A stretch of DNA of 17,552 bases from an uncultured Bacteroidales bacterium (GTDB lineage Bacteria > Bacteroidota > Bacteroidia > Bacteroidales > UBA932), in contig CAMOVV010000004.1 in the NCBI GenBank assembly GCA_946627685.1, positions 1-17,552 on the forward strand, written 5' to 3'. The notes below the pieces were generated by a model, which was not told the origin of the DNA, ran no database searches, and was given only the letters and a program-made list of their open reading frames with translations. Both the position numbers and the translations under genes were made by a program. The first letter of the stretch is position 1. Each line of letters begins with the position of its first letter. Below, piece by piece: positions 1,030 through 13,172 of this stretch.

Positions 1030-1059
1030 TTTGGACAAAAAAATAATTTTATATATTTG
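1030..1059 (+). promoter_or_regulatory. Bacteroidota-type promoter of the Hdr-like operon
   Basis: A -33 element TTTG (1030-1033), an 18-base spacer and a -7 element TATATTTG (1052-1059) match the Bacteroidota primary sigma consensus TTTG-N19-21-TAnnTTTG with a spacer one base short. It predicts transcription starting near 1063 and a leader of about 28 bases before the ATG at 1091. It is the only good match in the 140-base gap between the divergent oxidoreductase gene and the operon. No matching -7 box was seen on the minus strand for the oxidoreductase gene. Confidence 0.65.
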
Positions 1060-1090: not shown

Positions 1091-1789
1091 ATGGGCATGC
1101 TATACGATAAATTGATGCAGGATTACCGGCTCCGGGAGGGCCTCAATGCCTGCATAAACTGCGGAACGTGCACGGCTGTCTGCCCTGCCGCCGAGTTCTA
1201 CAAATACGACCCCAGAAGAATTGTTGACATTGTCCAGAGCGGCGACGAAGAGAAAATCGAGGAGCTTCTCCGGAGCGATGTCATCTGGTACTGCGGCGAG
1301 TGCATGAGCTGCCTGACCCGCTGCCCGAGGAAAAACGCCCCGGGCCTGGTAATCATGGCCTTGAGGTCCCTTTCCATCGACCTCGGCTATTTCATCGAAT
1401 CGGAAAAAGGACGCCAGCAATATCTCCTTTCGAGGGATATCTGCGGCAATGTCCTCAACTACGGATACTGCGTCTATCCGCGCCATTTCGACTATAAATC
1501 CCATCCCGAGGCCGGAAGGGTCTGGGAGTGGGAAGAGCAGCACATGGACGAGGTGTATGAAAGGCTCGGCGCCAACCTCGAAGGCGGCGGCCCCGGGGCC
1601 CTCAGGAAAATTCCCGACGAAGATCTCGCCCAGCTGAAGAAAATCTTCGACCTCACCGGGGCCACAAAGAGAATGGAAACGGTGAAGGAGGCAGGGAGGA
1701 AAAAGGCCGAAGAGCTCGGCCTCACCGAGGAGGAGTTCTCCGCCATGCTCTATGAACAGTCCAGCCCCAAACATCTGAACAGGAAATGA
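1091..1789 (+). CDS. HdrC-like protein with two [4Fe-4S] ferredoxin motifs
   Basis: Predicted electron-transfer subunit related to HdrC of heterodisulfide reductase: it would carry electrons through two [4Fe-4S] clusters between a flavin subunit and an HdrB-like partner in the cytoplasm. Two CxxCxxCxxxCP motifs are visible, C21-C24-C27-C31 and C68-C71-C74-C78 (232-residue numbering), spaced as in HdrC. A charged, mostly helical region of about 150 residues follows, with two extra cysteines near 118-128. The ATG at 1091 is used; an in-frame TTG at 1085 and ATG at 1097 are alternatives. It is the first gene of a five-gene operon, and its stop overlaps the next start by four bases (ATGA). The Cys pattern and gene order make the family safe; the redox partner is inferred. 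Confidence 0.85.
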   Translation: MGMLYDKLMQDYRLREGLNACINCGTCTAVCPAAEFYKYDPRRIVDIVQSGDEEKIEELLRSDVIWYCGECMSCLTRCPRKNAPGLVIMALRSLSIDLGYFIESEKGRQQYLLSRDICGNVLNYGYCVYPRHFDYKSHPEAGRVWEWEEQHMDEVYERLGANLEGGGPGALRKIPDEDLAQLKKIFDLTGATKRMETVKEAGRKKAEELGLTEEEFSAMLYEQSSPKHLNRK

Positions 1790-2853
1790 TTTACGAAGGA
1801 AAACAAAAAATCTGGTCCGACTACCAGAAAGAGATACCGGACGACCACTACTATTATGTCCGCAGCTGCATCAGGCAGACCTTCTTCCCTGCGTCGGAAG
1901 GGGCCCTGCTGAAGATAACCCGCGGCATTCTCGGACGGGATGTATTTGAGAACGAGCATCATACCACCTGCGGAGGCATCGCCTACCACACCGACACCAT
2001 CCCCCACGAAACGGTGATGACCATCGTGGCAAGGCAGTTCGCCCTCATGCACAAGCATGGCTACGAGAACTATGTCTGCTCCTGCATCACTTCTTTCGGC
2101 ATTTATATCGAGACCCTCGAGACCTGGAGGAATTTCCCCGAGCTGGAGGCAAAAATCGCCGAGAACCTCAAGAAAACCTGCAACCTCGAGTTCGCAAAGC
2201 CGAAGTTCGTCGTCCACACCAGCGACCTTATCTATAAATTGAGAGAGGAGATTGCTTCAAAGGCAAAGTACAAGTTGGTGAATGTCAAGACGGGACAGCC
2301 GCTGAAGGTGGTGGAGCACATAGGCTGCCACTACTCGAAGATGTTCCCTTCGAAGGGGGTCGGCGGTGCGGAATATCCTTACGTCCTCGCCGGAATGGTG
2401 GAAGCCTGGGGCGGGGAAATCGTTGATTATCCGGAGCGTCGTCACTGCTGCGGCTTCGGCTTCAGGCAGTATCTCATCAAGGCCAACAGGGGTTATTCCC
2501 TCTCGAACACGCATAAGAAATTCGAGAGCATGGAGCCTTATGAGCCCGATTTCATCATCACCAACTGCCCCGGATGCGCCTATTTCATGGACCGCTGGCA
2601 GTATGTGATAGCCGAATCGCAGGGCAAGACCTACGGGGAGAACGGCAGGGGAATACCCGTCCTCACTTATGAGGAGGTCGCGGGACTCGTGCTGGGATTC
2701 AATCCCTGGGACCTCGGACTCCAGACCCATCAGGTGTATGTCGAACCCCTTCTGGACAAGCTCGGCATCCCCTACGAACCGGCAAAGAAATTCCTCGGGG
2801 CTAAAGGCCAGGACCTCGGCTGCCCGGCCCTTCCTACATGTCTAAAAGTATAA
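1786..2853 (+). CDS. HdrB-like CCG-domain protein
   Basis: 355-residue protein with two CCG-type modules, the fold that holds the non-cubane [4Fe-4S] clusters reducing disulfides in methanogen HdrB. The second module is canonical: C181, C221-C222 (HCCGFGFR) and C261-x-x-C264 (NCPGC), five cysteines with CX39CCX38CxxC spacing. The first is altered: C28, a single C62 in TTCGG where CCG is expected, then C98-S-C100 instead of CxxC, leaving four cysteines. It may hold an ordinary cubane cluster or none. The protein has no signal peptide or membrane span and should sit in the cytoplasm with the preceding HdrC-like protein. Translational coupling to its neighbour (ATGA overlap) and a four-base gap to the flavoprotein gene argue for a fixed complex. 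The substrate is unknown; CoM-S-S-CoB, used by methanogens, is unlikely in a bacterium of this type. Confidence 0.85.
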   Translation: MIYEGKQKIWSDYQKEIPDDHYYYVRSCIRQTFFPASEGALLKITRGILGRDVFENEHHTTCGGIAYHTDTIPHETVMTIVARQFALMHKHGYENYVCSCITSFGIYIETLETWRNFPELEAKIAENLKKTCNLEFAKPKFVVHTSDLIYKLREEIASKAKYKLVNVKTGQPLKVVEHIGCHYSKMFPSKGVGGAEYPYVLAGMVEAWGGEIVDYPERRHCCGFGFRQYLIKANRGYSLSNTHKKFESMEPYEPDFIITNCPGCAYFMDRWQYVIAESQGKTYGENGRGIPVLTYEEVAGLVLGFNPWDLGLQTHQVYVEPLLDKLGIPYEPAKKFLGAKGQDLGCPALPTCLKV

Positions 2854-2857
2854 GCCC

Positions 2858-3868
2858 ATGGCAAAAAACATCATCATCATAGGCGGCGGACCCGCCGGAA
2901 TGGAGGCTTCAGCCCGTCTGGACGCCCTCGGATATACGGTTTTCCTGGTGGAAAAGGAGAAGGCTCTCGGAGGCCATCTGGCACGCTGGGACAGGCTTTT
3001 CCCTGAAGGCAAACCCGCAGGACCCGTCCTCGATTCCCTCGTCGGAAATCTTGGGAACACGAAGGTGCTGCTTGAATCGGATGTGCTGAGCCTGAATCGT
3101 TTGGGAGATTCTTTCAGGATTTCGCTCTCCTCAGGTGTCAGCGTCATTGCAGACGCGGTCCTTCTCACCACGGGCTTCGACCTTTTCGAGGCTTCAAAGA
3201 AGGAAGAATACGGCTACGGCATCTACGACCATGTGGTGACCAACGCCGACGTGGAAGAGTTTTTCCGCACTGGCGGCGACCCGAGAATCGACAATCCCCA
3301 GAGAATCGGCCTCGTTCACTGCGTGGGATCAAGGGACGAAAAGGCCGGCTGCCGGAACTGCTCGAAGGTGTGCTGCGCCACCGCCGTCAAGCAGGCCTGC
3401 GAGCTGAAGGCCAAATTCCCCGCCGCGACGGTCTATTGCTTCTACATGGACCTCAGGATGTTCGGGCGCGGGTATGAAGACCTCTACCTCAAGGCCCAGA
3501 AAGAATATGGCATCAGGTTCATAAGGGGCAGGGTATCAGAAGTTTCCGAGAGAATTGACAAGACCCTCCAGATAAAGGCGGAGGACACCCTTTCCAGCAC
3601 CCCTCTCAGGGTGACCCTCGACCTTCTGGTACTCATGGCCGGCATGAGACCTTCCCGCGAAGGGACAAAAGTCGCGAAAATGATACATCTCGCAACCGGC
3701 GATGACGGCTTCCTCTCCTCCCTCGACGGCTTCGGCGGAATGCAGGCCACCTCCATCCCCGGACTCTTCGTCGCAGGAGCGGCCACAGGCCCCAAGACCC
3801 TCCCCGACACCATCGCAGAGGCCAGGGCAGCCGCCTCCCTCATCCACGAATACCTGCAGAAGTCATGA
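2858..3868 (+). CDS. Minimal HdrA/QmoA-like FAD and Fe-S oxidoreductase
   Basis: 336-residue flavoprotein resembling the FAD core of HdrA and, in length and layout, QmoA of sulfate reducers. The N-terminal FAD-binding motif is GGGPAGMEA (9-17), with the acidic ribose-binding end at VEKEKALGGH (31-40). The family signature is HCVGSRDEKAGCRNCSKVCC (154-173), with C155, C165, C168, C172 and C173; in HdrA the matching cysteines bind a [4Fe-4S] cluster. The second FAD contact is PGLFVAGAATGPKTLPDT near 303-320. Absent are the ferredoxin domains of the roughly 650-residue methanogen HdrA and any MvhD-like or thioredoxin-reductase-like extension, so electrons must enter through another protein. In the complex it should pass electrons to the HdrC-like subunits; bifurcation at its FAD is possible but unproven. 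Its stop overlaps the next start (ATGA). Confidence 0.85.
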   Translation: MAKNIIIIGGGPAGMEASARLDALGYTVFLVEKEKALGGHLARWDRLFPEGKPAGPVLDSLVGNLGNTKVLLESDVLSLNRLGDSFRISLSSGVSVIADAVLLTTGFDLFEASKKEEYGYGIYDHVVTNADVEEFFRTGGDPRIDNPQRIGLVHCVGSRDEKAGCRNCSKVCCATAVKQACELKAKFPAATVYCFYMDLRMFGRGYEDLYLKAQKEYGIRFIRGRVSEVSERIDKTLQIKAEDTLSSTPLRVTLDLLVLMAGMRPSREGTKVAKMIHLATGDDGFLSSLDGFGGMQATSIPGLFVAGAATGPKTLPDTIAEARAAASLIHEYLQKS

Positions 3869-4194
3869 TAGATTTCGGATTCTACCTTACCCCAAGTTCC
3901 ACCATCGACCTGGACAAGGTGGACCGCAAGGCGGTGGACGACCTCGCAAGGGCCGACTCCGGCATTCGCACCTGCATCGCCTGCGGCAGCTGCACGGCCT
4001 CCTGCACGGCCGGCGTCTTTGCCGACACCAGTGTCCGCCAGGCGATTCTCTCGGTCCTCAACGGCCGGAACGAAAAGGCCAGGGAACTTCTATCCTCGTG
4101 CATGCTCTGCGGAAAATGTATGATGGTGTGCCCCAGGGGAATCAACACCCGGCACCTTATCCTCTCCATCCAAAAATACTTTGACGGACAATGA
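3865..4194 (+). CDS. Short HdrC-like protein with two [4Fe-4S] motifs
   Basis: 109-residue ferredoxin-type protein, the second HdrC-like gene in the operon. Cysteines are C37-C40-C43-C47 (CIACGSCTASC) and C78-C81-C84-C88 (CMLCGKCMMVCP), each suited to one [4Fe-4S] cluster. Apart from these motifs and a short N-terminal region of about 36 residues almost nothing is present, so it is close to the smallest possible HdrC. It lies between the flavoprotein and the membrane fusion protein and overlaps both genes by four bases, so it probably wires the HdrA-like flavin to the membrane module. Qmo complexes use an HdrC-like domain fused to QmoC for that link; here it is separate. No signal peptide, so cytoplasmic. 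Confidence 0.85.
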   Translation: MIDFGFYLTPSSTIDLDKVDRKAVDDLARADSGIRTCIACGSCTASCTAGVFADTSVRQAILSVLNGRNEKARELLSSCMLCGKCMMVCPRGINTRHLILSIQKYFDGQ

Positions 4195-6098
4195 CGCCCT
4201 TCTACATACTGCAGACAGACGTTCCCGAGGTAATCGACAGAATCCCCGGAGCTTACGACCATTTCATCCTGCCCTACTGCGCGGGTATCATCTTCTGCCT
4301 GTGCTGGCTCGGCGTCGGCCTCGTGAGGGTCATCGCCAACCTCAGCTCCTCCGACAGGAAGGCCCTCCTCCTCTCTTTCGTCAATCCGGTGCTCATCTGG
4401 AAAAACCTGAAAGACATCTTCTGCGACTGCCTCCTCCACACCAAAATCTGGAAAAGGAAACCCCTCCTCGGCTTCATGCACTCCGCAATAGCCTTCGGAT
4501 GGTTCCTCCTCATCGTGCTGGGACACCTGGAAGTGTGGTTGTTCGCTCCCCGTCACCTCTACCTTGACAACGGCTCCCTTTTCTACCCCATCTTCTACAG
4601 ATATTTCATCTGGATGAACCCGGGACACACCACCCTCAGGGGCTCGCTGTTCTTCTTCCTCATGGACCTCTGCCTCCTGTATGTCCTTGCTGGTATAGGA
4701 CTTGCCATTTTCAAGAGATTCCGCTCCAGGCTGCTCGGGATGAAACACACCACCAAGCCCTCGCTCATGGACAGGGTGGCCCTCTACTCCCTTTGGGGCA
4801 TTTTCCCGTTCAGGCTGCTGGCCGAGAGCTTCACGGCCGACCTTGCAGGAGGAAGTTTCCTCACCCTTCCGGCCAACGCCCTGTTGCGCTTCCTTTTCGG
4901 GGACAACCTCCATTTCATGCCCTGGTGGTGGGCCTATTCCATCGTCCTCGGACTCTTCTTCGTTAGCCTTCCGTTCTCGAGATATATGCACATCCTCACG
5001 GAGCCCCTGCTCATTTTGCTGCGGAATGCGGGTATCAAGGTAAGGCACCCGAGGAAAGGCTACGCCGAGGCGGAAATCTATGCCTGCTCCAGCTGCGGAC
5101 TCTGCCTGGACGCCTGCCCGATGAACGTGCAGAAGAAGAACCTCCGGTTCTCTTCGGTTTACTTCATACGCTTCTTGAGAAGGCACAACGAAAAGAAAGT
5201 CAACCGTATAGCCGACAAGTGCCTGCAATGCGGCAAGTGCCTGGCGCTCTGCCCCGTCGGGGTGGATTCGCCTGCTATCCGAAGGCGCCAGCGGGCTGCC
5301 TACAACGACCGCCTGGCCTTTGACTATTCAGCCCTGAAGGCCCCCGTGCCCGGTGGCGTTTCCGGCGCGCCTGTTGCCGGCGGCGGCACCCCTGCGCCCG
5401 CCGGAGGGAAGGTGATGTATTTCGCCGGCTGCATGTCCCACCTTACGCCCAGAATCATAAAGGCCGTGCTCGAAGTGTTCCGGAAAGCCGGAGAAGACTT
5501 TGTCTTTGCCGACGAGAACGGAGGCCTGTGCTGCGGAAGGCCGCTTCTGCTCGCCGGAAAGGACCGGGCCGCAAAGACTGTCATCGAGGCCAACAGGAAG
5601 ATGATAATGGAATCCGGCTGCACGACGCTCGTCCTCTCCTGCCCCATCTGCCTCAAGGTGTTCAAAGAGGAATACAAGCTGCAAGGAATTGAGGTTCTTC
5701 ACTATACGGAATACATGGACAGGCTCGTAGCCGAAGGGAGGCTGACCCTCAGGAAAGGCGAAGGCTCCTTTGTCTATCACGACCCGTGCGAACTTGGAAG
5801 GGGCTGCGGCATCTACGACGCGCCACGCCGCCTTGTCGAGGGAGTCGGACAGCTGTGCAAGGCGGAAAAGGAAGGCGACGAAAGCGTATGCTGCGGCGGA
5901 AGCCTCGGAAGCCTCACCCTGAGCTATGACGACAGGAAACGGATTACAGCCGGAGCGCTGGACAACCTCCTCGTGAACCACCCGGACCGCATCGTCACCG
6001 CCTGCCCCCTCTGCCTCAAGACCTTCTCCGACGCCTCCTCCGACGTCCCCGTAGTGGACATCGCCGAACTCGTCGCAGAATCAACTGCCCGAGTCTGA
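4191..6098 (+). CDS. NarI/HdrE-like membrane domain fused to HdrC- and HdrB-like modules
   Basis: 635-residue protein that looks like HdrE+HdrD, or DsrM+DsrK, in one chain. Residues about 24-49, 92-118, 150-176, 192-213 and 245-278 are hydrophobic helices of a nitrate-reductase-gamma-like domain; H97, H112 and H267 (PFSRYMHI) are candidate heme b ligands. Two ferredoxin motifs follow, C299-C302-C305-C309 and C344-C347-C350-C354. A Gly/Pro/Ala-rich linker (about 384-408) leads to two complete CCG modules: C414, C447-C448, C484-C487; and C533, C567-C568, C605-C608. It should sit in the inner membrane with Fe-S modules facing the cytoplasm, exchanging electrons between menaquinone and a thiol/disulfide or Fe-S partner. 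It is the last gene of the operon, overlapping the previous one by four bases. The domain order also occurs in uncharacterised COG0247-type reductases, so quinone chemistry and direction of flow are inferred. Confidence 0.85.
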   Translation: MTPFYILQTDVPEVIDRIPGAYDHFILPYCAGIIFCLCWLGVGLVRVIANLSSSDRKALLLSFVNPVLIWKNLKDIFCDCLLHTKIWKRKPLLGFMHSAIAFGWFLLIVLGHLEVWLFAPRHLYLDNGSLFYPIFYRYFIWMNPGHTTLRGSLFFFLMDLCLLYVLAGIGLAIFKRFRSRLLGMKHTTKPSLMDRVALYSLWGIFPFRLLAESFTADLAGGSFLTLPANALLRFLFGDNLHFMPWWWAYSIVLGLFFVSLPFSRYMHILTEPLLILLRNAGIKVRHPRKGYAEAEIYACSSCGLCLDACPMNVQKKNLRFSSVYFIRFLRRHNEKKVNRIADKCLQCGKCLALCPVGVDSPAIRRRQRAAYNDRLAFDYSALKAPVPGGVSGAPVAGGGTPAPAGGKVMYFAGCMSHLTPRIIKAVLEVFRKAGEDFVFADENGGLCCGRPLLLAGKDRAAKTVIEANRKMIMESGCTTLVLSCPICLKVFKEEYKLQGIEVLHYTEYMDRLVAEGRLTLRKGEGSFVYHDPCELGRGCGIYDAPRRLVEGVGQLCKAEKEGDESVCCGGSLGSLTLSYDDRKRITAGALDNLLVNHPDRIVTACPLCLKTFSDASSDVPVVDIAELVAESTARV

Positions 6099-7307
6099 TC
6101 AGTCGCCGATAAGATCCTGCAGCAACCGGTCCAGAAGAGATTCAGAGTAGCCTGCCTGGATCTTGCAGATTGTCCCGGCGGGATTTATGATAACGAAGGT
6201 GGGGATTCCGGGGGTGCCGAACATTCGCAGGAACACCGTTTCTCCCATGGGATCGTTCCAGTTGTTCCAGGTTATTCCATGCTCTTTCGAGGCCTCCTTC
6301 CAGACAGCCTCGGTGTCCACGCTGATGCTGACGACTTCCAGTTTTCCTGAATACTTTTCGGCGATCCGCGTCAATTCAGGGATAGCTTGGACGCAAGGGG
6401 CGCACCCGCGGCTCCAGAAATCCGCCAGGATCCATTTCCCGGAAAGATCAGCCAGCTTCCGTTTCTCCCCGGATGCATCCTTATAATGATATTCGGTTAC
6501 ATGGTCGCCTTCCCGCACCCGGCGCACATCTTCCAGGTAACCGGCGATTTTACGGCCTTCAGACGAGGCTTTCTGCTCATTGGATAGACGCCCGTATATC
6601 TTCCAGGCCGTTTCACGGTTCTCTTCTTCTCCGTTTGAAACCCCCATTGCAATGGAATACAGCTGTCTGAGGGCATAACGGCCGATTTCCTCCTCCTGAA
6701 GAATCTCCATAATCTGCCGGGTCAGCCTGTTGCCGATACCATGCAAGGAATCCAAATCGTCCTTCATGACTCTCCGCAACGAATCCTGAACCTCCGCCGA
6801 AGATTCTCCGCCATATATAAGGGCATAGACGGCAGAGTTGCGGTGGACGCTGATATCCTGATGAGCCTTCCAGTCTTCAAGCGACATCTTTCCCAGAAAC
6901 CGGGCGCGAAGTTTCTGGTCCTTCACGGGGCTTTTGACTTCAGCATTGTTCATATAGTGTGCATCTCCGCAGACGCTGACCTTCACACCGGGCTCCAGAT
7001 ACAGCTCCGGGCCGTGGCTGAGCGGAATCGGGTATGCGCCGGAATTATTGATCAAAGAGATTGCATAGTATTTGTCTGCCTGGACGGAATCCAGACGGAA
7101 ACTGAACTTACCGTTCTCCAGAGTGTCCGTCATTACGCCTTTTCCTGAATTTTCATCCATGAGGACGAGGACGGCGGAAACCGTGTCTGAAGGATTAATC
7201 CCCGCCACCAGGCCGGTTATAAGGGCGCCGTTTTCAGGAACCTTGGGCCCGCAGGAGAAAACTGTGAGGACAACGGATGCAACAGCACAGAAATCCAGAA
7301 CTTTCAT
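6099..7307 (-). CDS. TlpA-type thioredoxin lipoprotein with DUF4369-like N-terminal domain
   Basis: 402-residue envelope thiol-disulfide oxidoreductase. MKVLDFCAVASVVLTVFSC is a lipoprotein signal with lipidated C19. Residues about 27-110 resemble the DUF4369 beta-sandwich found before thioredoxin domains in Bacteroidota, followed by a helical region rich in charged residues. The C-terminal thioredoxin fold carries WSRGCAPC with C302 and C305 as the redox pair and the cis-proline loop GTPGIPTF with P369. Family members reduce or exchange disulfides in exported proteins; the partner is unknown. The open frame extends upstream to 7376, but that extension would cross the predicted promoter and hides the signal peptide, so the ATG at 7307 is used. 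The gene converges on the Hdr-like operon with no base between the two stop codons. Confidence 0.88.
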   Translation of the reverse strand: MKVLDFCAVASVVLTVFSCGPKVPENGALITGLVAGINPSDTVSAVLVLMDENSGKGVMTDTLENGKFSFRLDSVQADKYYAISLINNSGAYPIPLSHGPELYLEPGVKVSVCGDAHYMNNAEVKSPVKDQKLRARFLGKMSLEDWKAHQDISVHRNSAVYALIYGGESSAEVQDSLRRVMKDDLDSLHGIGNRLTRQIMEILQEEEIGRYALRQLYSIAMGVSNGEEENRETAWKIYGRLSNEQKASSEGRKIAGYLEDVRRVREGDHVTEYHYKDASGEKRKLADLSGKWILADFWSRGCAPCVQAIPELTRIAEKYSGKLEVVSISVDTEAVWKEASKEHGITWNNWNDPMGETVFLRMFGTPGIPTFVIINPAGTICKIQAGYSESLLDRLLQDLIGD

Positions 7308-7342
7308 AGCAGATGAGATTATTTTATAAGGCGCAAGTCCCG

Positions 7343-7350
7343 CAAAGGTA
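7343..7350 (-). promoter_or_regulatory. -7 box of the TlpA-type gene
   Basis: On the minus strand 7350-7343 reads TACCTTTG, a full match to TAnnTTTG. It predicts transcription starting near 7339 and a leader of about 31 bases before the ATG at 7307. No clear TTTG was found at the -33 position. The box lies only 10 bases from the oppositely directed box of the lactonase gene. Confidence 0.5.
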
Positions 7351-7360
7351 TAAAATATTC

Positions 7361-7368
7361 TATATTTG
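7361..7368 (+). promoter_or_regulatory. -7 box of the lactonase-family gene
   Basis: TATATTTG matches TAnnTTTG exactly and ends six bases before the ATG at 7375. With the usual distance from this box, transcription would begin at about 7372, giving a leader of only a few bases, or none. No TTTG is present at the expected -33 position. Confidence 0.5.
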
Positions 7369-7374
7369 TGAACC

Positions 7375-8466
7375 ATGAAACGGAACTTGATATTTGCATT
7401 GGCGGCTTTGTGGCTGATGCCGCTCGCAGCCCAGAATCCCAGGATCCTGATAGGGACCCTGACGGAAGGAACGGCCTCGGAAGGGATTTACCTCTATTCG
7501 TTTGACTCCGGGTCGGCCCAGGCGACCCTGCTGGATACAGCTCCTGCCGCAAATCCCACATTTTTGACCATATCTGACGATGGTACAAGGGTTTACAGCG
7601 TAAATGAATTTCATGACGGAAGACAAGGGGTGAGTTCCTTCACCCTCGGCCCCGACGGGATTTCCCCCCTCAACAGCCTTTCCATCCCCATGGAAGCGGC
7701 AAACGCCGGGGACCCCTGCAATATCCTCTGGCTTCCGGGAGTTGTCGTCACATCGAACTACACCGGAGGGTCCGTAACGGCCTTCCCGCTCAATGCCGAC
7801 GGCACTCTCAACGGCATGAGCCAGGCTTTCTCCTGCGAAGAATCCCCGGCCGTCATCGAATCCAGGATGCACTGCGCCGTGCTCTCCCCGGAAGGAAAGT
7901 ATATTTTCGTGACAAACCTGGGACTTGACTGCATCCATCGTTTCGTCCGCGGGGAGAAGGAGCGGCCTCTTGGCAAAGACACCGTCGCCTGGAAAGAAAA
8001 AAGCCGCGCCAAATTCGGCCCCAGACACATGGTTTTCAGCGACGACGGACGCTTCGCCTATCTTCTTTGCGAGCTCGGGGACAAACTCGTTGTCTTTTCC
8101 TATGACGATGGAGAACTTACTCCTATACAGACACTTACCGCCTACAAAGGCCGTGGCCGCGGCAGCGCCGACATCCACCTCTCCCCCGACGGCCGCTTCC
8201 TCTACACAAGCCACCGCCTGAGAGGCGACGGTATCTCCATTTTCTCCGTTGACGGCAAGACCGGAAAGGTGAAGCGCGCGGGTTTCTGCCGCACAGGCGT
8301 CCACCCGAGGAATTTTGCCATCAGCCCCGAAGGCAGGTTCCTCCTTTGCGCATGCAGGGACAGCGACCGCGTCGAAATCTACAGCCGCGACCCGGTCTCC
8401 GGCACCCTCACCCCCACAGGCAAGAGCATCGGAATCGACTCTCCTATGTTCGTCAGGTTCCTTTAG
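7375..8466 (+). CDS. Exported lactonase-family (Pgl-like) seven-bladed beta-propeller
   Basis: 363-residue protein of the lactonase family (PF10282, COG2706), whose best-known member is the beta-propeller 6-phosphogluconolactonase. MKRNLIFALAALWLMPLAAQ is a type I signal peptide, so the protein acts in the periplasm or outside, where sugar-acid lactones rather than 6-phosphogluconolactone are the likelier substrates. Repeated blade motifs are visible: ISDDGTRVYSVNEF, LSPEGKYIFVTN, FSDDGRFAYLL, LSPDGRFLYTSHR and ISPEGRFLLCACRDSDRV, each pairing a (S)PDG-type turn with a following strand. Length fits the family (about 340-380). The start agrees with the signal peptide although it lies very close to the promoter box. 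It is alone in its transcription unit, divergent from the TlpA-type gene and convergent with the GH43 gene 48 bases away. Family confidence is high, substrate unknown. Confidence 0.88.
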   Translation: MKRNLIFALAALWLMPLAAQNPRILIGTLTEGTASEGIYLYSFDSGSAQATLLDTAPAANPTFLTISDDGTRVYSVNEFHDGRQGVSSFTLGPDGISPLNSLSIPMEAANAGDPCNILWLPGVVVTSNYTGGSVTAFPLNADGTLNGMSQAFSCEESPAVIESRMHCAVLSPEGKYIFVTNLGLDCIHRFVRGEKERPLGKDTVAWKEKSRAKFGPRHMVFSDDGRFAYLLCELGDKLVVFSYDDGELTPIQTLTAYKGRGRGSADIHLSPDGRFLYTSHRLRGDGISIFSVDGKTGKVKRAGFCRTGVHPRNFAISPEGRFLLCACRDSDRVEIYSRDPVSGTLTPTGKSIGIDSPMFVRFL

Positions 8467-8514
8467 GGACGCTTGATTTCCAGCGTGCGGCAGTCAAGGA
8501 AGGACAAGCCGCAA

Positions 8515-9516
8515 TCACTTTATTTCCAAAGAGTAGCCGGTGTCTTCGAGAGGAAGGATGACGGGATGGGAATGGCCGCTGTTCGGCTGGTGGAAGACGA
8601 TTCTGAGATTGCCTTCGAAATCCCGGAACACCATCGGGTGTCCTCCGTCGGCCTCGAAGATGGGCTCGGGGTCGCAGGTCCAGGGGCCGGCAATTTTTCC
8701 GGAAGCGGACCTGGAAACGGCCACGCAGTACTTCCCGTTTTTGAACGAAGACCACAGAATCAGCAGCTGTCCGTCTTTTGTCCTGTAAACGAAGTTCCCG
8801 TCGGAAACGTAGGCCGGCGATGAAGACCCGTCAGGATTTTTCCACTGGTTTATAGGAGAGCACCAGGGAGCCTGGGAGGCGGTAAACAGCGTGCGGGGCT
8901 CCCCGGCAGGGCCGGAAAGGTCTTTTTTCAGGGGCATAAGCTCGAAGGTCCCGTCCAGAACCTGCACCCACTCGTGGCAGAAAATCATGTACGGCACCCC
9001 GTCTTCGACCCAGAGAGTGCCGTCAAGGGCCATGTAGTCCTTGGGGGTGGTCAGCTCTTTTCCAAGGGGAAGGAAGGGGCCGTCCAGGGACTCCGAGCGG
9101 AAAATCTGGGTACCCCTGTAAGTGAAGGCGGGCCAGTCTGGGACGGATTCCGCCCATTTGCGGTCGGAGTTAAGGGTGGCGAAAATATACCAGTTCCCCT
9201 CGTAGCGGTGGACCTCCGGGGCCCAGACCGCCCCGGTGATGAAATTGTCCTCAGGCACCGTGAACACCCTCGAAGGGCCGCTCCAAAGTTTCAAATCCTT
9301 GCTTTTGAACGCTTCCACCCCGCCAAGACCCTCGTCGGTGGTAGATGAGCGGAAAAGCCAGTAGTTCTTCGTGGCCTCGTCCGCCACTATGAAGGGGTCA
9401 CGGCAATAGATGCTGTCGGTAGGGATTCCCGCCGGGGCTTCGGCACGGCGCCCTCCGGTCTTGCACGAAACCGTGGCGCAAAGGACGGCCGCCAGGATAA
9501 ACAGGTGCTTTTTCAT
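8515..9516 (-). CDS. Glycoside hydrolase family 43-like lipoprotein
   Basis: 333-residue five-bladed beta-propeller glycosidase of the GH43 type, the class acting on arabinose-, xylose- or galactose-containing side chains. The signal MKKHLFILAAVLCATVSC ends in a lipobox (C18), so the enzyme is probably anchored in an envelope membrane. Visible blade motifs: CRDPFIVAD with D40, the expected general base; WAPEVHRYEGNWYIFAT (98-114); MALDGTLWVEDGVPYMIF with D165, the likely pKa-modulating aspartate, followed by E182 in CHEW; SDGNFVYRTKDGQLLILWSS; and GHPMVFRDF. Which glutamate is the general acid cannot be fixed by eye. A TTG at 9531 lies upstream in frame, but the signal peptide fits the ATG at 9516. 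The start lies 11 bases after the GH92 stop, so both are one operon. Subfamily and substrate are not determined. Confidence 0.85.
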   Translation of the reverse strand: MKKHLFILAAVLCATVSCKTGGRRAEAPAGIPTDSIYCRDPFIVADEATKNYWLFRSSTTDEGLGGVEAFKSKDLKLWSGPSRVFTVPEDNFITGAVWAPEVHRYEGNWYIFATLNSDRKWAESVPDWPAFTYRGTQIFRSESLDGPFLPLGKELTTPKDYMALDGTLWVEDGVPYMIFCHEWVQVLDGTFELMPLKKDLSGPAGEPRTLFTASQAPWCSPINQWKNPDGSSSPAYVSDGNFVYRTKDGQLLILWSSFKNGKYCVAVSRSASGKIAGPWTCDPEPIFEADGGHPMVFRDFEGNLRIVFHQPNSGHSHPVILPLEDTGYSLEIK

Positions 9517-9527
9517 CGTAATGGAAA

Positions 9528-11897
9528 TCAAAGTTTTTCGCTGGAAAGGGAATACGGGAGGTCAGAGGGAGCCGGGACGGCTTTTTTCCTGGGCCTGGAA
9601 GTCATGTCGAACTCGAGCACGCCGCCCTGAAGGATGTCTTCCCTTGTCAGGAATCTGCGGCTCAGGGGTTTGCCGTTCAGCCTTACGGCCTTGACGTAGC
9701 GGTTGCGGGAGCTGACGGCAGGAGCCTTGACGGTGAAGTCGGCGCCGCCTTCAAGATGGAGGGTCATTTCGGGAAGGAAAGGCGCCCCGATGACAAACTC
9801 TCCGCTTCCCGGACAGACGGGATAGAAACCCATCGCCGAGAAGATGTACCAGGCCGACATCTGTCCGCAGTCGTCGTTTCCGCCGAGACCTTCCCTCTCG
9901 GGACGGTACATCCTTTCCATGATTTCCCGGAGCCAGTACTCTCCCTTCCAGGGCTGCGACGTCCATTGGAAGAGGTAGGGAATGTGGTGGGAAGGCTCGT
10001 TCCCGTGGACGTAGCCGCCGATGAGGCAGGATGCCTCGATATCTTCGTTGTTTTCGTAGTATTTGGGGTCAAGGGGAGTCGCGAAAAGGGTGTCCAGGAT
10101 ACCCAGGAAGCGTTTTTCCCCTCCCATAGCCTTTATCAGCCCTTCAACGTCGTGCGGCACGTGGAAGGAGAAATTCCAGGAATTGCCTTCTATGAAACCT
10201 TCCCCGTAGGTCTGCAGGGGGTCGGTGGGAGTTTTCCAGCTTCCATCCGCGTGGCGGGCCCTCGCGAAGGGGGATTTTCCGTCGAAGAGATTCTTCCAGT
10301 TCATCGCCCTCCGGGCATAAACCCTTGCGAGAGAATCCTTTCCGGCCTGTTTCGCGGCCTTGTAAATCGTCCAGTCGTCGTAGGCGTATTCCAGGGTTGT
10401 GGAAGCTCCGGTCGAGGAGCTTTCCAAAGGGACGTAACCCTTTTCCATATAGGCCCCTACACCTTCCAGATAAGGAACGGTGGAAGTGGACACCATCGCG
10501 TCGAGAGCCCTTTCAACGTCGATGTCCGCCCCGGCTCCGAGGGCGTCGGAAATGACTGATACCGCGTGATATCCACTCATGCACCAGCCCTCGTTGGCCA
10601 TGAGAGACCAGATGGGCAGAAGGCCGTGCGCGCTCTGTGCCTGATGGTGGAGCATGGAAAGGGCCATGCCGCGGGCCCTCTCCGGATGCATAAGCAGGAG
10701 AAGGGGATGCTCGGCCCTGTAGGTGTCCCAGAGGGAGAAGACGGTGTAGTTGTCCCAGCCGTCAGTGTGGTGGATTCCTCCGTCAAGGCCCCTGTAAGCC
10801 CCGTCCACATCGTCATATACGGACGGATTAATCATGGTGTGGTAGAGGGAGGTGTAGAGCATCCGCTTCTGGTCTTCCGTCCCGGAGACGGTGATTTTCG
10901 AGAGTTCCCTGTCCCAGGCGGCGGCAGCTTCCGAGCAGATTTGGCTGAAAGATTTGTCTCCGCTTTCCGCCTGTAGGTTTTTAAGGGCCCCTTCCACGGA
11001 AGTGGCGCTCAAAGCCACCCTGACCACCAGTTCGTCGCTGCCGGCCCAGTCGAAGTCGAACCAGCATGAAAGTCCCCTTCCGGCCATTTCAGGGAAGCCG
11101 TGGGAGGTGTTGAATTTACGCCAGAATCCCTTGTAGGGGGAGTTGAGGGTCTCTTTGCAGCCGTAGTCTTTCACGGAACGGGAGAATTTGACCGCGAAGT
11201 AGGTATAGTGCTCGCGGGCCCATCCCTGGGTGAGGCGGTAGCCTGTCAGGAGGCTGTCGCCGACCATCCTCACGCTGGCCCAGAGGGTCTTGCCTTCGTA
11301 GTTGTAAAGGCCGTGGGAGAGGTCGAGGACAAGGTGGCGGGCGTTTTCGGCGGCGGGATAGGTGTAGCGGTGGATGGCTGTCCTCTCCGTGGCGGACAGC
11401 TCCGCCTTTACGCCGTAGTCGTCGAGGGTGACTGCGTAGTAGCCCGGGAAGGCCGTCTCGGAATCATGGCTGAAGCGGCTTCTGTAGCCTTTTTCAGGCT
11501 CGGAGGCCGTGCCGGGATTGAGGCGCAGGGCTCCCGTGACGGGCATCAGGAGGATGTCCCCGAGGTCCGAATGTCCGGTTCCGCTGAGATGGGTGTGGGA
11601 AAAGCCTACTATGGTCGGGTCGTCATAACGGTAGCCGGCGCAGAGGGTATAGACCTCGGCCTGGTATTTTCCCGCGACGTTGTGGGGAATGGTGTCCGTG
11701 TCGGGACTCACCTGAACCCCTCCGAAAGGCACGCAGGCTCCCGGGAAGGTGTGTCCCATGCCGGAGGTACCTATCATCGGATCAACATACCGGGAAAGTT
11801 TTTCAGGACCGGCTTCAGCCCGTGAATATCCGGACAGGAGGCAGCCTGCCGCAATCAGGGCGGCAACCACCGCGATGGTTTGGACGAATTTCTTCAT
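9528..11897 (-). CDS. Glycoside hydrolase family 92 exo-alpha-mannosidase
   Basis: 789-residue GH92 enzyme; characterised members are calcium-dependent inverting exo-alpha-mannosidases, often acting on alpha-1,2-linked mannose of N-glycans or yeast mannan. Family motifs are clear: YVDPMIGTSGMGHTFPGACV near the N-terminus, GFSHTHLSGTGHSDLGDILL, SLWDTYRAEHPL, the general-acid motif IEGNSW with E570, and the calcium/catalytic-base motif GGNDDCGQMSAWYIFSAMGF with D675 and D676. Length fits the family (740-790). The signal sequence begins MKKFVQTIAVVAALIAAGC; it could be a weak lipobox or be cleaved later near SRAEA, so attachment is uncertain. A GTG at 11921 is in frame but falls on the predicted promoter, so the ATG at 11897 is preferred. 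First gene of a two-gene unit with GH43. Linkage specificity cannot be read from the sequence. Confidence 0.93.
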   Translation of the reverse strand: MKKFVQTIAVVAALIAAGCLLSGYSRAEAGPEKLSRYVDPMIGTSGMGHTFPGACVPFGGVQVSPDTDTIPHNVAGKYQAEVYTLCAGYRYDDPTIVGFSHTHLSGTGHSDLGDILLMPVTGALRLNPGTASEPEKGYRSRFSHDSETAFPGYYAVTLDDYGVKAELSATERTAIHRYTYPAAENARHLVLDLSHGLYNYEGKTLWASVRMVGDSLLTGYRLTQGWAREHYTYFAVKFSRSVKDYGCKETLNSPYKGFWRKFNTSHGFPEMAGRGLSCWFDFDWAGSDELVVRVALSATSVEGALKNLQAESGDKSFSQICSEAAAAWDRELSKITVSGTEDQKRMLYTSLYHTMINPSVYDDVDGAYRGLDGGIHHTDGWDNYTVFSLWDTYRAEHPLLLLMHPERARGMALSMLHHQAQSAHGLLPIWSLMANEGWCMSGYHAVSVISDALGAGADIDVERALDAMVSTSTVPYLEGVGAYMEKGYVPLESSSTGASTTLEYAYDDWTIYKAAKQAGKDSLARVYARRAMNWKNLFDGKSPFARARHADGSWKTPTDPLQTYGEGFIEGNSWNFSFHVPHDVEGLIKAMGGEKRFLGILDTLFATPLDPKYYENNEDIEASCLIGGYVHGNEPSHHIPYLFQWTSQPWKGEYWLREIMERMYRPEREGLGGNDDCGQMSAWYIFSAMGFYPVCPGSGEFVIGAPFLPEMTLHLEGGADFTVKAPAVSSRNRYVKAVRLNGKPLSRRFLTREDILQGGVLEFDMTSRPRKKAVPAPSDLPYSLSSEKL

Positions 11898-12527: not shown

Positions 12528-12559
12528 TTTGCTTTTTTTTTGAAAAATGCCGTAATTTG
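12528..12559 (+). promoter_or_regulatory. Possible promoter of the outer-membrane barrel gene
   Basis: TTTG (12528-12531), a 21-base gap and TAATTTG (12553-12559) resemble the -33/-7 pair, but the second element is one base short of TAnnTTTG. A run of nine to ten T bases lies between them. A leader of about 20 bases before the ATG at 12582 would result. Confidence 0.3.
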
Positions 12560-12581
12560 CCGCTTGAAAACAACATTTGAA

Positions 12582-13172
12582 ATGAAAAAGATACTTACAA
12601 CCCTTATCTGCGCAGCGGCCGCATTGCTTTTCGCCGCCAACACCAACGCACAGAGCCAGTGGGGCTTCGGCGGCGGTTTCATCCTCAATTCCTTCTCCGG
12701 AGCTGACAAAGCCCTGGTGGTGAACGACGCCTCCCGTCCCGGATTCTATCTCGGAATCGACAGGAACTGGGCTTTCTCTTCCCTTGAAGGCCTTTCCCTC
12801 GACCCCGGCGTAAACTTCGTCTATGTCTCCAAGGACAAGAAGCCGACCCCCTACATCCAGATTCCCGTCCACATCAAGTACACCACCGAGATGGCTCCCG
12901 ACTTTCTCGCCGCCCTTTACACCGGCCCGGTTTTCAATCTGGGACTCACGGCGAACGGATTCACGAGGGATGAATTTTTCCCTCTTGCCAAGATGAAGAA
13001 GTGGAACGCACAGTGGGCCATCGGAGCCGAGTTCACCTACTCCGAGTCCATCGCCCTCAAGGTCAGCTACAACCTCGGCATGAGCAGGGCCTTCTATGTC
13101 AAAGAGGCTTCTGACCCCAACATCCGTCAGAACAGCTTCCAGATTGGTCTTGTCTTCCGCGTATTCGAGTAG
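12582..13172 (+). CDS. Small outer-membrane beta-barrel protein
   Basis: 196-residue protein with a type I signal peptide (MKKILTTLICAAAALLFAAN, cleavage probably after A23 at TNA-Q). The mature part alternates aromatic/hydrophobic and polar residues in strands such as WGFGGGFILNSF, SRPGFYLGIDRNW, PYIQIPVHIKYT, FLAALYTGPVFNLGL, AQWAIGAEFTYSES and IALKVSYNLGM, and ends in a strand FQIGLVFRVF, as in eight-stranded barrels of the PF13568 type. It should sit in the outer membrane; no transport or enzyme function can be assigned. The start is set by the signal peptide; an upstream in-frame TTG at 12540 lacks it. The gene converges on the alkyltransferase gene with 11 bases between stop codons, and a strong inverted repeat begins 28 bases after its stop. 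Confidence 0.82.
   Translation: MKKILTTLICAAAALLFAANTNAQSQWGFGGGFILNSFSGADKALVVNDASRPGFYLGIDRNWAFSSLEGLSLDPGVNFVYVSKDKKPTPYIQIPVHIKYTTEMAPDFLAALYTGPVFNLGLTANGFTRDEFFPLAKMKKWNAQWAIGAEFTYSESIALKVSYNLGMSRAFYVKEASDPNIRQNSFQIGLVFRVFE

Follow-up and report, generated by a model that had tools for sequence, protein, structure and literature searches.

We describe a five-gene operon (C1, B1, A, C2 and M; Table 1) in a 17,552-nt stretch of DNA (the window) from an uncultured Bacteroidales bacterium, contig CAMOVV010000004.1. We propose, with a probability of roughly 0.6, that its products form a membrane-anchored, lipoate-independent complex of the sulfur-oxidizing heterodisulfide reductase-like (sHdr) kind, which supplies sulfite for the synthesis of sulfonolipids. 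The proposal is built on the anatomy and conserved order of the operon, on homology to sHdrA, sHdrB1 and EtfD, and on the location of the operon in sulfonolipid gene clusters of relatives; co-occurrence with SulA, and the presence of CysH beside SulA in other clusters, add to this basis. An initial annotation of the window had left the substrate open. This does not hold for relatives and, because sulfonolipid genes accompany the operon there, its likely product is sulfite.

Gene order and sulfonolipid genes in relatives

When named genomes were searched with M, 39 loci were obtained, 38 from Bacteroidota and one archaeal (loci and genomes are designated below by L and G numbers, respectively). 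Conservation of the gene order, which the initial annotation had put forward as a check, was observed at 35 of the 38 Bacteroidota loci, all with five genes in the order C1-B1-A-C2-M. The 3 exceptions are L023, in which no C2 was called between A and M, L041, whose contig starts inside A, and L050, which has M alone; at L054 and L058, extra open reading frames (ORFs) are interspersed among the five genes.

Directly behind M, a single gene recurs at 11 of the 38 loci. Two of these genes were tested and both encode cysteate synthase (CS; 460 and 485 bits with the NCBIfam model, cut-off 324.9), the enzyme that forms cysteate from O-phosphoserine and sulfite. In the window's genus, L144, L145 and L146 each carry SulA, a short-chain reductase (SDR), C1, B1, A, C2, M and cysteate synthase in that order, as one run on one strand. 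The same association was seen in other arrangements: L111 has SulA, a CS-like gene and C1, B1, A, C2 and M on one strand; L112 has SulA before the operon and SDR after it; and in L109 and L110, SulA, a CS-like gene and SDR adjoin a C1-C2-M-B1-A arrangement. In Alistipes finegoldii, SulA is reported to condense cysteate with acyl-acyl carrier protein in the first step of sulfonolipid synthesis (PMC9304779). The L111 SulA scored 636 bits against 7u7h (labelled 7-keto-8-aminopelargonate synthetase-like), presumably the Alistipes SulA structure, 596 bits against 28eh ('Cysteate-C-fatty acyltransferase') and 237 bits against serine palmitoyltransferase. The SDR is probably 3-ketocapnine reductase; a 3-ketocapnine reduction step is described in PMC11211663. 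Since SulA and SDR sit in the same cluster, a coenzyme-M-like thiol pathway, at which the cysteate synthase had hinted, was dropped, although no search for ComDE was made.

In 19 of the 51 genomes of the genus that have B1, cysteate synthase lies 3.09-3.35 kb from B1; its position directly behind M was read in L144-L146 and, for these 19 genomes, is inferred from the gap to B1. Clustering of SulA and a cysteate synthase or CS-like gene with the operon is thus seen in relatives (L109-L111 and L144-L146) and is absent from the window itself; in the window's genome (66% complete), a cysteate synthase gene (429 bits) is located on a different contig, at C11:2471-3637.

Distribution of B1, SulA and CysH

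Among 197 genomes of the order, SulA was found in 64 of the 66 with B1 (called at 130 bits or more) as compared with 82 of the 131 without it (p=1.4e-8); the two B1-positive genomes that gave no SulA match are the window's genome and G046. When each family was represented by its first genome in listing order (n=112), the counts were 36/37 and 51/75 (p=2e-4). Within the window's genus (n=101), SulA occurred in 49/51 genomes with B1 vs 26/50 without (p=1.8e-7), and cysteate synthase in 47/51 vs 23/50 (p=3.4e-7). Completeness in the genus is slightly higher for genomes with B1 than for those without (mean 91.2 vs 88.5), and for this reason both associations were recalculated with completeness thresholds of 90 and 95%; at 95% or above, SulA and cysteate synthase were each present in 23/23 genomes with B1 and 7/13 without. 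Kinship among the genomes is controlled only in part by the per-family and genus-level counts. Outside the order, a set of 296 genomes of the phylum, 3 of which are the window's genome and two more of its order, contained no close B1 and two remote ones at 30-31% identity, and SulA was present in 107 of the 296.

An alternative route to sulfite is by way of CysH, which was called in the order set at E<1e-30 (125 genomes, 116 of them above the curated cut-off). Of the 146 SulA-positive genomes of the order, 9 have CysH no more than 12 kb from SulA. By the same distance limit, B1 is close to SulA in 4 genomes and to any CS in 5. The SulA-CysH and SulA-B1 lists have no genome in common, and the 5 genomes of the order in which B1 is close to SulA or CS gave no CysH match. 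In the genus, CysH was above the cut-off in 3/101 genomes, and in 0 of the 19 with cysteate synthase beside the operon. A CysH-type cluster is seen in L149, with SulA, a vicinal oxygen chelate (VOC)-like protein, CysH, CysD, CysN, a permease, an SDR-like protein, CysQ and a CS-like protein. The Hdr (heterodisulfide reductase-like) module and CysH thus occur in alternative versions of the sulfonolipid cluster; this argument is based on gene location, falls short of proof and has exceptions. The two routes are alike in that CysDNH also yields sulfite and that CysH stands beside SulA in those 9 other sulfonolipid clusters. They differ in that the proteins are unrelated, and in that CysDNH reduces sulfate whereas the Hdr complex would oxidize reduced sulfur.

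A glyoxalase-superfamily (PF00903) protein of 356-367 aa accompanies SulA in both kinds of cluster, that with the operon and that with CysH (L109:13169-14239 and L145:8719-9804, with look-alikes in L146 and L149).

Gene products and relation to known systems

The features of the operon are given in Table 1. ORF coordinates confirmed the initial description of five same-strand genes with three ATGA overlaps and one four-base gap, and Pfam and NCBIfam matches bore out the assignment of HdrC-, HdrB-, HdrA- and HdrC-like parts followed by a fusion protein, M, with a dicluster and two CCG stretches. The promoter follows what we take to be the Bacteroidota consensus; the pattern has 2 matches in the window vs 0.10 expected.

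Table 1. Features of the operon in the window
Feature	Position	Strand	Description
Bacteroidota-type promoter	1030..1059	+	TTTG, 18 bases, TATATTTG; 31 bases upstream of C1 ATG
C1, HdrC-like	1091..1789	+	Two [4Fe-4S] sites (8 Cys), invariant C127; sHdrC1 counterpart
B1, HdrB-fold protein	1786..2853	+	sHdrB1 counterpart
A, short HdrA-type flavoprotein	2858..3868	+	One Fe-S site (C155, C168, C172, C173); sHdrA counterpart
C2, HdrC-like	3865..4194	+	Two [4Fe-4S] sites
M	4191..6098	+	NarI-like membrane cytochrome b domain, HdrC-like dicluster and HdrB-like domain

B1, the proposed catalytic subunit, has the HdrB fold (TM-score of 0.84, by target length, to HdrB 5odc). Its C-terminal CCG site is intact (C181, C221, C222, C261, C264), and its N-terminal site is reduced to C28, C62 and C100. 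In an alignment of 79 B1 proteins, filtered beforehand by score and length, identity reaches 97% or more at 106 of 355 positions, and none of the cluster cysteines varies.

The N-terminal and ferredoxin parts found in methanogen HdrA are missing from the flavoprotein A, which gave one continuous match (3-327, 220 bits) to 6tjr, which we take to be sHdrA of Hyphomicrobium; methanogen HdrA matches in pieces only. For comparison we used type II sHdr clusters of two phylum genomes outside the window's class. L160 has the order DsrE, LbpA, C1, B1, A, a 251-aa protein, a fused C-B protein, two electron-transfer flavoprotein (ETF) subunits and an M-like protein; L161 resembles it, by similarity and by eye. 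The C1 proteins of the window and L160 matched at 98 bits. Compared with methanogen HdrB, B1 and the sHdrB1 of L160 and L161 have both lost two cysteines of the N-terminal site and have a CCGFGF motif in common, and the alignment showed [T/S]C and C-x-T-S-[FY]-G to be common to B1 and sHdrB1. A 27-sequence tree put B1 and sHdrB1 on the same side of a 100/99 branch, although the program gave a long-branch warning. PMC11582611 defines type II sHdr as C1B1AHB3 with etfAB, proposes sHdrB1 as the catalytic subunit, and describes the sHdr system as oxidizing sulfur to sulfite.

The operon thus shares with the sHdr-LbpA systems (type I, C1B1AHC2B2; type II, C1B1AHB3 with EtfAB) the C1-B1-A core in the same order, a short HdrA and the altered N-terminal site of B1; a membrane Fe-S protein resembling M is also encoded in L160 (105 bits) and L161 (99 bits). 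In contrast, its five genes include neither an H protein nor EtfAB, C2 is separate and is followed by M, in which the second HdrB-like domain is fused to the cytochrome b domain, and the five-gene complex is tied to lipid biosynthesis and has a probable membrane quinone exit. With no linked LbpA, no ETF and this quinone exit, the complex falls outside the sHdr-LbpA system as defined; its core is of the sHdr type and, to judge by this comparison, it may work like sHdr.

M matched EtfD, the mycobacterial ETF:menaquinone oxidoreductase (9ojn), across 564 residues, and has the EtfD type of chain, with NarI-like, dicluster and HdrB-like domains in one protein. The EtfD structure shows an electron wire to menaquinone (PMC13083937). 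M is therefore probably an EtfD-like menaquinone reductase, and the link to menaquinone suggested by the initial annotation is still probable. The two differ in that M is shorter and has C1, B1, A and C2 as soluble partners; no ETF partner genes are among the operon's five genes, and a genome-wide search for them was not made.

The same annotation took the operon to be an Hdr-like membrane electron-transfer complex with a Qmo-like and a Dsr-like part. The former description stands and the latter parentage does not, as the soluble part matches the sHdr core and M matches EtfD. QmoABC and DsrMK resemble the operon in combining an Hdr-type flavoprotein with cytochrome b and Fe-S components that connect to menaquinone; they differ from it in that no Apr or Dsr genes were recognized in the window. 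Consistent with the earlier statement that no APS reductase or sulfite reductase gene accompanies the operon, no sulfur-metabolism gene was recognized beside it in the window, although no dsrA/aprA search of the genome was made. NCBIfam gave 48/300 bits (score/cut-off) with qmoC for C1, did not list that family for M, and gave 42/400 bits with DsrK for M; the Qmo comparison was limited to QmoC. Methanogen HdrABC and HdrDE have the same folds but differ in that the operon has no coenzyme M/coenzyme B context, and the scores for methanogen-type HdrA (241/1100), HdrB (135/450) and HdrC (85/350) were far under the cut-offs.

Observations that weigh against the proposal

Several observations do not favor a sulfite-supplying sHdr-type complex. 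With respect to sequence, one C-terminal cysteine kept by B1 is lost in the sHdrB1 of L160 and L161 and, by BLAST, B1 appears only moderately nearer to three sHdrB1-like proteins (139, 125 and 115 bits) than to two methanogen HdrB fragments (107 and 104 bits). No sulfur carrier was recognized beside the operon, and no LbpA-family gene was found within 12 kb of B1 in any of the 59 genomes covered, out of 66 B1-positive ones in the order, some of their contigs being short; GCV_H is present in 55 of these 59 genomes and wholly absent in 4. The CS-like protein of L111 is under the cysteate synthase cut-off (108 vs 324.9 bits), and no SulA match was found in the window's genome, at its 66% completeness. 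Also, the operon can be split, with B1-A alone in L113 and L116, and C1-B1 alone, without A, C2 and M, in L125 and L128.

With respect to distribution, cysteate synthase does not track B1 in the order (24/66 vs 34/131, p=0.14; 58 genomes, including one partial match, G130, at 312 bits), nor does it when CS-like proteins are included (36/66 vs 59/131, p=0.23). B1 and CysH are not strict alternatives, since 45 of the 64 genomes with SulA and B1 also have CysH and the two genes are adjacent in two genomes, G158 (L138, 1.1 kb, same strand) and G078 (L125, 4.9 kb); in G050 and G181, CysH is beside SulA and B1 is elsewhere. No order-wide anti-correlation of B1 and CysH was seen (CysH in 46/66 vs 79/131, p=0.21), and among SulA-positive genomes it was weak (45/64 with B1 vs 71/82 without, p=0.022). 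The window's genome, 66% complete, gave no CysH match. Finally, in 22 of the 101 genus genomes both SulA and cysteate synthase are present while B1 and CysH are both absent, and another sulfite source must therefore exist.

G158 and G078 show that both sulfite routes can sit together, with CysH rather than SulA as the neighbor, and the pieces in L113, L116, L125 and L128 make the operon behave as if built from separable modules. In G237, one of the 22 genomes just mentioned, a YeiH-type (PF03601) transporter adjoins cysteate synthase (L142:11150-12481). Look-alikes were noted by eye in L140, L141, L143 and L144, and the placement beside cysteate synthase also occurs where the operon and CysH are missing; our guess is that this protein is a sulfite importer, or a sulfite/sulfonate transporter.

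Proposed mechanism and alternative explanations

For the complex that we favor, we infer the direction of the reaction, the sulfur donor, the product and the coupling to quinone as follows. B1 would oxidize sulfide or carrier-bound sulfane sulfur to sulfite, and the electrons would travel through A, by its FAD and its cluster, and through the clusters in C1 and C2 to the HdrB/HdrC domains of M. From there they would reach menaquinone by way of heme b, with fumarate as their last acceptor. Given potentials of about -116 mV for sulfite/sulfide, -74 mV for menaquinone and +30 mV for fumarate, sulfide could be oxidized to sulfite in a downhill reaction when the electrons end on fumarate. Cysteate synthase would use the sulfite, after which SulA and the short-chain reductase would make capnine-type sulfonolipids. 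In anaerobes of the sulfidic gut, the complex would replace the sulfate activation and 3'-phosphoadenosine 5'-phosphosulfate (PAPS) reduction (CysDNH) of other sulfonolipid makers. The chances are about even that it constitutes a third sHdr class, menaquinone-coupled and lipoate-free, for anaerobic assimilatory oxidation of gut sulfide or sulfane sulfur to sulfite for sulfonolipids, a counterpart of PAPS reductase for anaerobic life.

The complex might instead serve a general oxidation and detoxification of sulfide and sulfane sulfur, linked to the menaquinone pool, to which the sulfonolipid tie would be secondary. Sulfide detoxification has been proposed (PMC11129491) for the Hdr genes of Labilibaculum, Ancylomarina, Lentimicrobiales and other Black Sea isolates, and the C1-B1 pairs have as neighbors CysH, OsmC-like and Cys/Met pyridoxal phosphate-enzyme genes in L125, and an OsmC-like gene and, by eye, thioredoxin-type genes in L128. 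We consider this unlikely: it would not predict the near-exclusive co-occurrence with SulA or the gene runs shared with sulfonolipid genes, and sulfide oxidation was not seen in culture (PMC11129491). According to the same source, capnine lipids are produced by Ancylomarina and Labilibaculum, in agreement with the sulfonolipid reading.

The cluster and co-occurrence data would fit equally a complex running in the reductive direction, in which menaquinol electrons split S-sulfonates, such as S-sulfocysteine and thiosulfate, into a thiol and sulfite. Disulfide reduction is what Hdr enzymes do, and both CCG sites are complete in the HdrB-like domain of M; yet menaquinol is too weak a reductant for thiosulfate without proton motive force, and B1, as the catalytic candidate, shows the sHdrB1 form of the site, which is altered, and not the methanogen form, so that we regard reductive release as quite unlikely. 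It is very unlikely that the complex has no role in inorganic sulfur metabolism and serves fumarate respiration or a thiol/disulfide couple as redox partner, its place in sulfonolipid clusters being due to hitchhiking. Many of the 38 loci, including the window, do have unrelated neighbors, but SulA or cysteate synthase clusters were found in several families, and the association holds within the genus and across families.

If sulfite supply is indeed the function, gut and rumen Bacteroidales consume reduced sulfur while making an immunoactive lipid; sulfobacins and other sulfonolipids are described as immunomodulatory and linked to inflammatory bowel disease in the introduction of PMC11211663. 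The operon offers a testable answer to where anaerobes without sulfate assimilation obtain the sulfite for cysteate, a question that seems not to have been asked; the word sulfite is absent from the two pathway papers that were checked for it, PMC9304779 and PMC11211663. None of the top-ranked literature matches listed treats Hdr and sulfonolipid synthesis together, in a search whose coverage leaves out most subscription journals. The proposal would also give a likely function to a widely conserved, uncharacterized redox operon of Bacteroidales, and would shift sHdr chemistry from energy-yielding sulfur oxidation to anaerobic lipid biosynthesis.

Neighboring genes and other observations

The operon in the window is followed by genes for a thioredoxin-fold protein (6099-7376), a lactonase-type beta-propeller (7375-8466), a GH43 enzyme (8515-9531) and an outer-membrane beta-barrel (12540-13172), which show no visible tie to it; scanning the window for Rfam families and tRNAs gave no match.

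Directly upstream of C1, a MarR-like regulator is encoded in L025, L026, L027, L030, L031, L033, L038 and L048, and one is also found near cysteate synthase in L143 and L145; the assignment comes from a domain scan of the L026 protein and, for the remainder, from similarity. Possibly, the regulator may act as a sensor of sulfur species. An OsmC-family protein (PF02566), with a possible role in thiol or persulfide handling, is encoded behind M in L111 (5347-5769), and has relatives near C1-B1 in L125 and L128.

Of 7998 candidates scored in a protein database, 7133 matched M, although many of these must be broader Fe-S relatives. A Candidatus Thorarchaeota archaeon (L059) has an M-like protein with 27% identity over residues 278-631, the similarity being to M only. 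A plasmid of Acidithiobacillus ferrooxidans (L171) has an sHdrB1-like gene (7854-9194) whose neighbors carry the annotations hemerythrin, globin and hydroxylamine reductase; the 17 kb shown contain a GcvH-annotated gene and no annotated sHdr partners.

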